Source: Martelella sp. HB161492 (GTDB taxonomy: Bacteria; Pseudomonadota; Alphaproteobacteria; Rhizobiales; Rhizobiaceae). Taken from it: 64,000 nt of DNA. Below, one piece after another: positions 15,000-19,060 of the stretch. Position numbers and translations under genes: made by a program. Under the pieces are notes generated by a model. It did no database searches. It saw only the letters and a program-made list of their open reading frames with translations, and was not told the origin of the DNA. Numbering within the stretch: the first letter of the stretch is position 1; the number at the start of each line of letters is the position of its first letter. Where the stretch lies: positions 62,001 to 126,000 of the forward strand of contig NZ_JAATVV010000002.1 of NCBI RefSeq assembly GCF_013184775.1, given 5' to 3'.

Positions 15000-15027
15000 A
15001 CGCTCTGCCCAATCCCGGAGAGATGTG

Positions 15028-15861
15028 ATGGAACCGTCACGCGATATTGCGCGCCTTCTCGAAATCATGGCCGCCCTGCGCGATCCTGAAACCGGCTGCC
15101 CCTGGGATGTCCGGCAGAATTTCGAGACCATCAAGCCCTATACGATCGAAGAGGCCTATGAGGTTGCCGATGCGATCGAGCGCAACGACCTCGACGATCT
15201 CTGCGACGAGCTCGGCGATCTGCTGCTGCAGGTCGTGTTTCACGCCCGCATGGCCGAAGAGGCCGGCGAATTCTCGTTCGGCGATGTGGTTCATGCCGTG
15301 ACGTCGAAAATGATCCGCCGCCATCCGCACGTCTTCGCCCGCTCCGATGCCGATACGCCGGAGGCCGTCAAGGCAATCTGGGACGATGTCAAACGGAAGG
15401 AAAAGCAGACCCGCGCCGCGCGCCGCGCCGAACGGGGGCTGACCGAGGATTTCAAGGCCGGTCATCTCGGTGGCGTGCAGCGCTCCTTCCCGGCCCTCAC
15501 CGAAGCGCTGAAGCTGCAGGAACACGCCGCTCGTGTCGGGTTCGACTGGTCCGAGCCGGAGCCTATTCTCGACAAGTTCGAAGAAGAGATCGGCGAGCTG
15601 CGCGAGGCGCTCACGGCCGGCGATCGTGCGGCTATCGCTGACGAGCTGGGCGACCTGATTTTCGCCGCGGTCAATCTCGGCCGCCATACGGGCACCGACC
15701 CCGAACAGGCTCTGCGTGGAACCAATACAAAATTCAGGCGTCGGTTCAATTACATAGAGACGTCTCTTGAGAATGCAGGCGAAAGCCTTGACGACGCAAC
15801 GCTGGAACGTATGGAAGCGCTCTGGCAGGATGCAAAAAAGATCGAGCGCAAACTCGGCTGA
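15028..15861 (+). CDS. mazG: Nucleoside triphosphate pyrophosphohydrolase MazG
   Basis: MazG hydrolyses nucleoside triphosphates to monophosphate and pyrophosphate, cleaning the nucleotide pool. The 277-residue protein holds the two tandem MazG domains: EEAYEVADAIERNDLDDLCDELGDLLLQ near residues 41-68 and, more degenerate, FEEEIGELREALTAGDRAAIADELGDLIFAAVN near 185-217. GCPWD at residues 24-28 is also typical. I prefer the ATG at 15028 over the adjoining GTG at 15025; GGAGAG stands just upstream. It converges on hflX. Confidence 0.95.
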   Translation: MEPSRDIARLLEIMAALRDPETGCPWDVRQNFETIKPYTIEEAYEVADAIERNDLDDLCDELGDLLLQVVFHARMAEEAGEFSFGDVVHAVTSKMIRRHPHVFARSDADTPEAVKAIWDDVKRKEKQTRAARRAERGLTEDFKAGHLGGVQRSFPALTEALKLQEHAARVGFDWSEPEPILDKFEEEIGELREALTAGDRAAIADELGDLIFAAVNLGRHTGTDPEQALRGTNTKFRRRFNYIETSLENAGESLDDATLERMEALWQDAKKIERKLG

Positions 15862-15900: not shown

Positions 15901-17178
15901 TCAGCCCTCCAGCATGCTTTCCAGCCGCTGGGCTTCGCTCGCCGGCAGACGGATATCGAGACTGACCGAGCCGTCTTCAAGATCACGCCGGTCGTCAACG
16001 ATGGCGTGCTCATAGAGCCAGGGAAGAATCTGCAGCTGCGTCACCGCGAGCGTGATGGTCGTTTCCGTCAACACCCCGGCAAGCCGCTTGGCGATCCGGT
16101 CGATCAACGCCTCGACGCCTTCGCCGGTGATGGCCGATACACCCATCACCGCATCGTCGCCGCTGGCGCGTTCCATCAGCGCATCATGCGCCTCGGGCTC
16201 GAGCAGATCGACCTTGTTCCAGATCTCGAGAATCCTGGCATCGCGATCATCTTCATCAATGCCGAGCTCGCCAAGAATGCGAAGAACATCTTCCGCCTGC
16301 GCATCCCGGTCCGGATCCGACATATCCCGCACATGCAGGATGATATCGGCCTCCAGCACCTCTTCCAGCGTCGCACGGAATGCGGCCACGAGATGTGTCG
16401 GCAGATCGGAAATAAAACCAACCGTATCGGAAAGGATGACGGTGCGCCCATGGGGAAGCTTCATCCGCCTGAGCGTGGGGTCAAGCGTGGCAAACAGCAT
16501 ATCCTCGGCCAGAACGCCTGCGCCGGTGATCCGGTTGAACAGTGTCGACTTTCCGGCGTTGGTATAGCCGACCAGGGCAACAATCGGATGCGGCACCTTC
16601 TTGCGCTTTGAACGATGCAGCTGACGCGTACGCACCACCTGCTCCAGCTCACGCTCCAGCTTGACGATACGTTCGCGCAGCAGGCGACGGTCTGCCTCGA
16701 TCTGCGTTTCACCCGGACCACCCATGAAGCCACCGCCACCGCGCTGACGCTCAAGATGGGTCCAGCTTCGTACCAGCCGGCCGCGCTGATAATTCAGATG
16801 CGCCAGTTCAACCTGAAGCCGGCCTTCCTTGGTCGACGCGCGCTCACCGAAAATTTCGAGAATGAGGCCAGTACGGTCGATGACCTTTGCCACCCAGGCT
16901 TTTTCCAGATTGCGTTGCTGCACCGGTGTCAATGGATGGTCGACGATAACAAGACCGACATCGTTGTCATCAAGGGCCTGGTCGATTTCCTCGATCTTGC
17001 CCTGACCGATCAGTGTTGCGGGACGCGGATCGTTGACCGGAACGATCACCGATCTGACCACCTCAAGCCCAATCGCGCGGGCAAGCCCTTCAGCTTCCTG
17101 CTGACGGCTCTCCGCCGAACGCGTGCTCAACGACGCTGCGGCGTCTCCGCCGCGCGCTGCTTTCAGGACCGGAACCAA
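15901..17178 (-). CDS. hflX: Ribosome-associated GTPase HflX (N terminus probably longer)
   Basis: HflX is a GTPase that binds ribosomes and splits stalled or heat-damaged ones. The protein has the HflX N-terminal domain (PATLIGQGKIEEI, VVDHPLTPVQQRNLEK, GRLQVELAHLNYQRGRLVRSWTHLERQRGGGGFMGGPGETQIE) and the G domain: G1 GYTNAGKST, G3 DTVGFISDLP, G4 NKVD. The coordinate given is the first canonical start, a TTG with no ribosome binding site. The frame stays open for 24 more codons that read like the family (ending SRALVLVPV), back to an ATT at 17248-17250 with GGGTGA six bases upstream; no ATG, GTG or TTG lies there. It follows hfq closely, as in other proteobacteria. Confidence 0.92.
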   Translation of the reverse strand: MVPVLKAARGGDAAASLSTRSAESRQQEAEGLARAIGLEVVRSVIVPVNDPRPATLIGQGKIEEIDQALDDNDVGLVIVDHPLTPVQQRNLEKAWVAKVIDRTGLILEIFGERASTKEGRLQVELAHLNYQRGRLVRSWTHLERQRGGGGFMGGPGETQIEADRRLLRERIVKLERELEQVVRTRQLHRSKRKKVPHPIVALVGYTNAGKSTLFNRITGAGVLAEDMLFATLDPTLRRMKLPHGRTVILSDTVGFISDLPTHLVAAFRATLEEVLEADIILHVRDMSDPDRDAQAEDVLRILGELGIDEDDRDARILEIWNKVDLLEPEAHDALMERASGDDAVMGVSAITGEGVEALIDRIAKRLAGVLTETTITLAVTQLQILPWLYEHAIVDDRRDLEDGSVSLDIRLPASEAQRLESMLEG

Positions 17179-17264
17179 AACGAGGGCGCGGGAGGAATCC
17201 CTGTTCTCGTATTCACTTTCCGGAAATTTCGATTTGTCTTGCTCAGAAATGTGGGTTCACCCGA

Positions 17265-17507
17265 TTACGACGAACTGTCTTCGCCCTCGAACATCTGAAC
17301 CGGCTGACCGGGCATAATGGTCGAGATTGCATGCTTGTAGACCAACTGGGAGTGGCCATCGCGACGCAACAGAACACAGAAGTTGTCGAAGGATGTCACA
17401 ACACCCGTAAGTTTGACCCCATTTATGAGAAAAATCGTCAATGAAATCTTCTGCTTACGAACTGTATTAAGAAAAAGATCTTGAAGATTTTGAGAACGTT
17501 CCGCCAT
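17265..17507 (-). CDS. hfq: RNA chaperone Hfq
   Basis: Hfq is a hexameric Sm-like protein that pairs small RNAs with mRNAs. The 80-residue product has the Sm1 region ([41 protein letters not shown]) and the Sm2 signature [10 protein letters not shown]. Its short C-terminal tail ([14 protein letters not shown]) is typical of alphaproteobacteria, where Hfq is about 80 residues long. It is transcribed leftward into hflX, with the hfq stop only about 15 bases before the ATT that may start hflX. The 176 bases between it and trkA presumably hold its promoter. Confidence 0.97.
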
Positions 17508-17683
17508 AGCGCCGCTTCTTTCTTACTTTTGCCGGAATTTCGCCGGTATCCACCTCATTGATTTCGCCATGTCCTACTGACCAAGTGAAATCTCTTTGAC
17601 GGTCGTACCAAATCGTTATGCTTTCCGCAACGGTGAAAACGATACCCGTAAACGTCGCACCGCACAAATCGTTGCATCCAGGA

Positions 17684-19060
17684 CTAGAAATACTGAATCG
17701 AGACGCGAAACAGCTGCTCGACATGGCGGACGGCCGAGGCCGCGGCAAAAAGAATCACCCGGTCACCGGTCTTGATCTTCATGTCGCCGGTCGGCCGCAG
17801 AAATGATTCGCCCCGGTAGACTGCGCCGATCCTGATGCCTTCCGGCAGTTCGAGATCGCGGAACGGCGTTCCGACCAGCGGCGACGTTGCGAGCGCCTCG
17901 GCCTCCACCACTTCCGCCGCCCCCTTCTGCACCGCATAGACCGAGCGGATACGCCCTTTGCGAACATGCTGCAGAACGCGCGAGATCGTCACCGCGCGCG
18001 GATTGATATAGGCATCGATGCCGAGCGACTTGGTCACATCGTGGAAAGAAGGATTGTTCAGCAGCGCCAGATTGGAATCACAGCCCAGCTGCTTGGCAAT
18101 CACGGAAGCCAGAATATTGGTCTGGTCGTTATTGGTCAGCGACACCATCAGATGCGCATCCGGCACATCCGCCTGGATCATCAGGTTCTGGTCGAGTGCC
18201 GAGCCCTGCAGCACGATCACATTGTGCAGCTGATCGGAGACGGCAATGGCACGCTCGCGATCATTCTCGATGATTTTCACCTTGGTCTTGGGCTGCAGCT
18301 CTTCCAGCGACTTGGCAACGAAGAAGCCGATATTGCCACCACCGGCAATCACGATCCGCCGCGCTTCCTGCTCTTCGTGGCCGAACAGCGCCAGCGTCCG
18401 GCGGATCTGATCCTGTTCGCAGACCACATAGACCATGTCGCCAACCAGGATCTGGTCGGAGGAATGCGGAATGATGATCTTGTCATGACGGTAGATGCCG
18501 GTCACCGTCGCGCTGAGATCGGGGAAAAGCTGGCTGAGCTGCTGCAGCGGCGTGTTCACCACCGGGCAGTCATCGTGGCACTCGACCGCGAGCATGGCGA
18601 TATTGCCGTCACCGAACCGTACGATGTCGGTGGCGCCGGGGAAGGAGATGCGTCGCAACACCATCCTGCCGACTTCGACTTCCGGCGAAATCGTCACATC
18701 AATGGGCATGTGATCGCGTGAGAACAGATCCGAATAATGCGCCTGAAGATAGCTCTGCGAGCGGATTCGGGCGATCTTGGTCGGAACGTTGAACAGCGAG
18801 TGGGCCACCTGGCAGGCAACCATGTTGATCTCGTCATGCAGCGTCACGGCGATGATCATGTCAGCTTGATCGGCGCCGGCCCGGGCCAGCACATCCGGGT
18901 GCGCACCGTGGCCGACATAGCCACGCACATCCAGAAGTTCGGTGATCGCGCTGATCAGCGTTGCCGATGTATCGATGACCGAGACATCGTTATATTCCTG
19001 GGAAAGTCGCTCGGCGATACCGAAGCCGACCTGCCCTGCCCCGCAGATGATGATCTTCAT
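17684..19060 (-). CDS. trkA: Trk system potassium uptake regulatory protein TrkA
   Basis: TrkA is the cytosolic NAD(H)-binding gating subunit of the Trk potassium channel. The 458-residue protein is a tandem duplication of RCK N and C domains, with two Rossmann motifs: IICGAGQVGFGIAERL at the N terminus and IVIAGGGNIGFFVAKSL in the second half. Each is followed by a TrkA-C domain. No TrkH or TrkG pore gene lies in the window. It sits between ntrX and hfq, the standard order in rhizobia. Confidence 0.95.
   Translation of the reverse strand: MKIIICGAGQVGFGIAERLSQEYNDVSVIDTSATLISAITELLDVRGYVGHGAHPDVLARAGADQADMIIAVTLHDEINMVACQVAHSLFNVPTKIARIRSQSYLQAHYSDLFSRDHMPIDVTISPEVEVGRMVLRRISFPGATDIVRFGDGNIAMLAVECHDDCPVVNTPLQQLSQLFPDLSATVTGIYRHDKIIIPHSSDQILVGDMVYVVCEQDQIRRTLALFGHEEQEARRIVIAGGGNIGFFVAKSLEELQPKTKVKIIENDRERAIAVSDQLHNVIVLQGSALDQNLMIQADVPDAHLMVSLTNNDQTNILASVIAKQLGCDSNLALLNNPSFHDVTKSLGIDAYINPRAVTISRVLQHVRKGRIRSVYAVQKGAAEVVEAEALATSPLVGTPFRDLELPEGIRIGAVYRGESFLRPTGDMKIKTGDRVILFAAASAVRHVEQLFRVSIQYF

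Follow-up and report, generated by a model that had tools for sequence, protein, structure and literature searches.

Gene content of the hflX locus

The window, by which we mean the whole stretch of 64,000 nucleotides from Martelella sp. HB161492 that was analysed, carries directly behind hfq a gene whose product scored 453.4 bits against the HflX model TIGR03156 (cut-off 216.75), contains the Pfam domains GTP-bdg_N, GTP-bdg_M, MMR_HSR1 and HflX_C, and matches the structure of Escherichia coli HflX (5ady, 8e-93). The gene can therefore be identified as hflX, as had been proposed in a sequence-only reading of the window, and its closest named match is the HflX of Martelella lutilitoris (85% identity). 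The same reading had suggested that hflX starts at a non-canonical ATT, with GGGTGA six bases upstream and a TGA that closes the frame; on the minus strand all three elements were recovered at the positions it gave (Table 1). The distance to the hfq stop, estimated at about 15 bases, is 14 nt, and the frame is indeed open for 24 codons ahead of the TTG at 17178 and encodes the peptide that was quoted. In the HflX of the window, the N-terminal domain runs from residue 49 on.

The flanking genes were assigned by their look only: the ORF at 15025-15861 (+), presumably mazG, is convergent with hflX and lies about 40 nt from its end, and the ORF at 17507-19060 (-), which we take to be trkA, lies immediately upstream of hfq. 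A D-amino-acid transaminase gene is found ahead of hfq in Sinorhizobium meliloti Ak57 and is absent at that place in the window.

Table 1. Features of the hfq-hflX junction and of hflX in the window
Feature	Position	Strand	Remarks
hfq	17265..17507	-	Upstream neighbour of hflX; Hfq models matched
hfq stop codon TAA	17267-17265	-	14 nt ahead of the ATT
GGGTGA, predicted Shine-Dalgarno sequence of hflX	17257..17262	-	Six bases before the ATT; computed pairing
In-frame TGA, closing the frame	17257..17259	-	Two codons (ACC CAC) ahead of the ATT
ATT, proposed start codon of hflX	17248..17250	-	Conservation and onset of protein constraint
N-terminal extension, 24 codons, ISEQDKSKFPESEYENRDSSRALV	17179..17250	-	pN/pS
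First canonical codon in frame (TTG), dismissed as start	17176..17178	-	24 codons after the ATT
hflX, 449 codons if started at the ATT	15901..17250	-	TIGR03156 and Pfam domains; frame ends at 15901

Conservation of the ATT within Martelella

We compared the window genome with 12 congeners, and the order hfq stop, GGTGA, in-frame TGA, two codons and ATT was found in all 13 genomes. The recurrence of ATT, TGA and GGTGA makes a sequencing error very unlikely, and the misread ATG that the sequence-only reading had kept as an alternative is disfavoured accordingly. None of the 13 genomes contains a canonical start that would give the same protein: the first in-frame ATG, GTG or TTG lies 21-24 codons past the ATT in nine of them, and 36 (L014), 61 (L005), 95 (L009) and 114 (L015) codons past it in the other four. 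In L005, L009 and L015 no canonical start could yield the whole N-terminal domain of HflX, and in L014 the ATG at 36 codons is preceded by a comparable Shine-Dalgarno sequence (computed pairing -7.0 kcal/mol). By its length alone a run of 24 codons free of ATG, GTG and TTG is unremarkable; it is the conservation that raises it above chance.

The extension behaves as coding sequence, with a pN/pS over the 13 genomes of 0.21 overall and of 0.056 over its conserved block, for which the other two frames give 2.2 and 4.1, and such constraint is absent from the two codons that precede the ATT (pN 0.395, pS 0.352). The start codon column contains no change at all, at about 0.5-0.6 synonymous differences per site elsewhere in hflX, and it is the only one of 19 invariant isoleucine columns that is fixed as ATT, a codon that makes up 25% of the isoleucine codons of the gene. 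The computed Shine-Dalgarno pairing at the ATT amounts to -7.2 to -8.4 kcal/mol in all 13 genomes (-8.4 in the window), and since 1-14% of the in-frame positions further along these genes pair equally well, this counts as support and not as proof. RNA structure that would mask the start was looked for in the computed unpaired probabilities, which range from 0.05 to 0.79 at the start codon, and no shared pattern was found.

The same codon position in other Rhizobiaceae

Related loci were collected from a family sample (116 genomes with a match, hflX DNA obtained from 111, i.e. all but G017, G068, G088, G121 and G122), an order sample (146 genomes with a match, 27 further loci read, two of them from Rhizobiaceae) and a class sample (116 genomes with a match, 29 loci inspected and left uncounted). 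For the start codon 68 loci were entered, of which 59, including one duplicate, could be placed by rule, leaving L033, L041, L050, L054, L057, L058, L059, L088 and L139 unplaced. One of the 58 unique loci, L103, is itself near Martelella, and some record names (e.g. that of L111) look wrong.

An isoleucine codon occupies the same position in Rhizobium, Agrobacterium, Sinorhizobium, Neorhizobium, Shinella, Mycoplana and further genera, and over the 58 loci it reads ATT (41), ATC (13) or ATA (4); ATT thus fills 41 of 58 places in this column against 19% gene-wide and at most 21 of 58 in other conserved isoleucine columns. No canonical start occurs between the hfq stop and this AUH codon (AUU, AUC or AUA) in 49 of the 58 loci, the other nine having one, and in 25 of the 58 this absence is combined with an in-frame stop at most 12 codons upstream. 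The pN/pS is 0.345 over the 20 codons behind the isoleucine and 0.96 over the four codons ahead of it (54 loci), and the coding constraint therefore starts at the isoleucine codon itself. Both this analysis and that of the isoleucine columns were made with hand-picked exclusions (L033, L041, L103, L106 and L122), and the pN/pS analysis additionally without L053, L055, L123 and L124. In 44 of 59 rows four or more letters match the Shine-Dalgarno sequence 5-10 nt ahead; 14 rows lack such a match. The relatives share the codon site, with constraint from there on, as expected of a conserved AUU-type start.

History of the proposed AUH start

A quick tree was made from 140 HflX proteins after removal of the N-terminal extension, with SH-aLRT values as the only support measure. 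The 41 rows that were assigned an AUH start require five changes on this tree, compared to 35.8 with shuffled labels, and all belong to a single clade that comprises 48 rows (support 98), the core of which contains 37 AUH among 38 rows (support 97). The labels were partly set by hand, as the automatic start rule did not classify 13 rows and anchored some wrongly: six rows were set to AUH (L036, L041, L049, L052, L054 and L056, with a TTG upstream in L049 and L052), seven were taken from the codon behind an in-frame stop, and L241, L245, L257, L265, L271, L274, L285, L287 and L291 were dropped, a canonical start being absent from the scanned stretch in L265, L274 and L287.

The start called by rule in the 99 rows without AUH assignment is TTG in 86, GTG in eight and ATG in five, and of the 79 rows to which the rule itself gave a TTG, 50 have it directly abutting the hfq stop (TGATTG). 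An ATG start of hflX is rare outside the AUH clade (L060-L087, L213-L291), where TTG prevails; TTG is the start in E. coli K-12 as well. Weak starts may be common to this gene at large. Within the 80 rows that could be assigned a codon at the AUH position (nine of them by hand) we counted ATT 57, ATC 16, ATA 6 and ATG 1, with at least 12 codon changes on the tree. As methionine would be supplied by the initiator tRNA whichever AUN codon is present, the near absence of AUG, i.e. a codon drift that is nearly confined to AUU, AUC and AUA, reads as selection for a weak and against a strong start, which we infer from the scarcity of AUG.

The infC gene of the same genomes

The gene encoding IF3 was inspected in 43 loci, 13 from Martelella and 30 from other members of the family and order. 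An ATT was found at the first codon of IRRP, behind a GGAG-type Shine-Dalgarno sequence, in all 43; no canonical start lies upstream in frame in 20 of them, and in the remaining loci the start was derived from the conservation of its position. It is thus very probable that IF3 itself is started from AUU in this lineage, as has been reported for E. coli (PMC5472188).

Proposed role of the start codon

The non-canonical start that was suspected in the window has gained strong support from its conservation in all 13 Martelella genomes, the onset of constraint and the tree. On the strength of these comparisons, hflX in Martelella very probably does start at the AUU, an old, maintained trait. We consider it likely (probability about 0.82) that hflX of Martelella starts at an AUU preceded by GGTGA just behind hfq and that an AUH start was inherited and selected across a clade of the Rhizobiaceae; this start may also keep HflX low, at a level set by IF3. 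Within this reading, the start position in Martelella and the persistence of AUH are what genome comparison shows, and control of HflX by IF3 through AUU is plausible, since an identical AUU is found in infC of these genomes.

The mechanism that we propose is as follows. The initiator tRNA would read the AUU, so that HflX would begin with methionine, and the codon mismatch would keep the output of HflX below that of Hfq. IF3, by its rejection of AUH codons, would set the output of HflX; when free IF3 falls, HflX would rise, alongside IF3 from the AUU-started infC. HflX is described as splitting 70S ribosomes under stress and IF3 as keeping free 30S subunits from rejoining 50S subunits (PMC9067457), so that a shared sensor would tie the splitting of 70S ribosomes to how much anti-association factor is available. 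Repression by IF3 through non-canonical starts has been demonstrated for infC and sigR (PMC5472188). In a proteome of S. meliloti (PMC3484140), quantitative values for HflX came from a single replicate of one fraction only; this fits weakly with a low abundance of HflX, the start in S. meliloti being possibly a different one. That HflX in the Rhizobiaceae serves as a readout of free IF3, rising together with infC when IF3 is short, with UUG acting as a brake elsewhere, is a tentative proposal to which we give somewhat less than an even chance.

More simply, the AUU could be a real start that acts as a fixed brake, keeping HflX below Hfq from one message without any signalling by IF3, and we regard this as nearly an even proposition. 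TTG would do the same job in the 86 of 99 rows without AUH and in E. coli K-12, and because TTG, the choice of the rest of the family, is tolerated by IF3, selection may act on low output alone; pcnB is limited likewise, as cited in PMC1780047. Against a purely fixed brake it can be argued that IF3 disfavours AUU by nature, which makes some sensitivity hard to avoid, and that infC has the same AUU codon.

Starts of the AUU type are known as a kind, to which hflX would add a new case of unusually wide distribution. The closest parallel is infC of E. coli, likewise an AUU behind a Shine-Dalgarno sequence in a gene for a factor acting on ribosomal subunits; there IF3 demonstrably controls itself, whereas in hflX it would control another protein. 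E. coli pcnB (cited in PMC1780047 and PMC13009471) resembles hflX in having a weak AUU start in a gene that does not encode an initiation factor, but it is unrelated to HflX and has experimental support, while the hflX start is proposed from sequence comparison. In Streptomyces, sigR shares the clade-wide non-canonical start and its misannotation, the codon being GTC and not AUH and the effect of IF3 having been demonstrated (PMC5472188). The Staphylococcus aureus genes cvfC1 (AUU) and ccpN (AUA) have such codons behind an extended Shine-Dalgarno sequence, and conservation among staphylococci is reported for cvfC1; these are other genes in another phylum, and their starts were established by ribosome trapping and reporters (PMC13009471). 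A leader-peptide element upstream of hflX, described in Bacillales (PMC8632094), is a different arrangement. A search of open-licence PMC papers brought up none that names an AUU-type start for hflX.

The AUU-type starts of bacteria that are described experimentally are few, infC, pcnB, cvfC1 and ccpN being those named in PMC1780047 and PMC13009471, and hflX, which encodes a ribosome factor of wide distribution, is a strong candidate for a further one, with conservation across many genera. The start codon is predicted to keep HflX scarce, and IF3 may regulate ribosome splitting; gene finders, which accept ATG, GTG and TTG only, are predicted to misplace the hflX start in much of the clade.

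Alternative start sites and exceptions

A start at a downstream canonical codon, i.e. the TTG at 17178 or the ATG at codon 22 (RDDM) in Rhizobium, with the frame ahead untranslated, would suit gene finders with their three accepted codons, and that ATG occurs in 49 of 54 loci outside Martelella. We consider it very improbable given the protein constraint on the codons ahead, including the extension in front of the TTG, and the three Martelella genomes that lack a canonical codon for 61, 95 and 114 codons. The TTG is moreover without a Shine-Dalgarno sequence (computed pairing +1.9 against -8.4 kcal/mol at the ATT) and is the first canonical codon in only one of the 12 congeners (L004). The sequence-only reading had named, as an observation that would speak against the ATT, relatives with an ATG at the position of the TTG and no conservation upstream: an ATG is indeed found near that position in the 49 loci, but the upstream codons are constrained and none of the 13 Martelella genomes has this ATG. 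In Rhizobium and relatives the codon-22 ATG could, judging from the sequence, give rise to a second, shorter form of HflX.

Synthesis of HflX by readthrough or frameshifting from hfq, or from an upstream canonical start, with the isoleucine as an internal residue, is the least credible alternative: it could draw on relatives whose frame continues uninterrupted into hfq or has its stop in common with hfq, and on the nine of 58 loci with a canonical codon in between, but in all 13 Martelella genomes the in-frame TGA between the hfq stop and the ATT excludes it, and with it an Hfq-HflX fusion, unless this TGA is itself read through, and it is at odds with the 25 of 58 relatives that have a nearby in-frame stop and no canonical start between, and with the four codons ahead of the isoleucine, which evolve as if unconstrained (0.96).

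The nine loci comprise three with GTG three codons ahead of the isoleucine (L118, L121 and L157), three from Agrobacterium with ATG 14 codons ahead (L092, L093 and L097) and three with an upstream TTG (L049, L052 and L108). The GTG was found in all five named Sinorhizobium loci, ahead of the ATT (L118, L121, L157, L321 and L323), and hflX is annotated from it in the record of S. meliloti Ak57; in other loci with the same junction its place is taken by GTA, GTT or ACA, which argues against an upstream start. For Sinorhizobium and some Agrobacterium an upstream start of hflX, at the GTG and the ATG respectively, is a live possibility. The GTG and the conserved ATT of Sinorhizobium may compete.

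Two loci are unusual at the start itself. L033 reads ATC-ATG, and in L103 (recorded as Marinicella sp. W31) the extension just behind the ATT reads FLKANTRTG where the genus has FPESEYENR, a difference such as two shifts of one base that compensate each other would leave, whether real or an assembly error.
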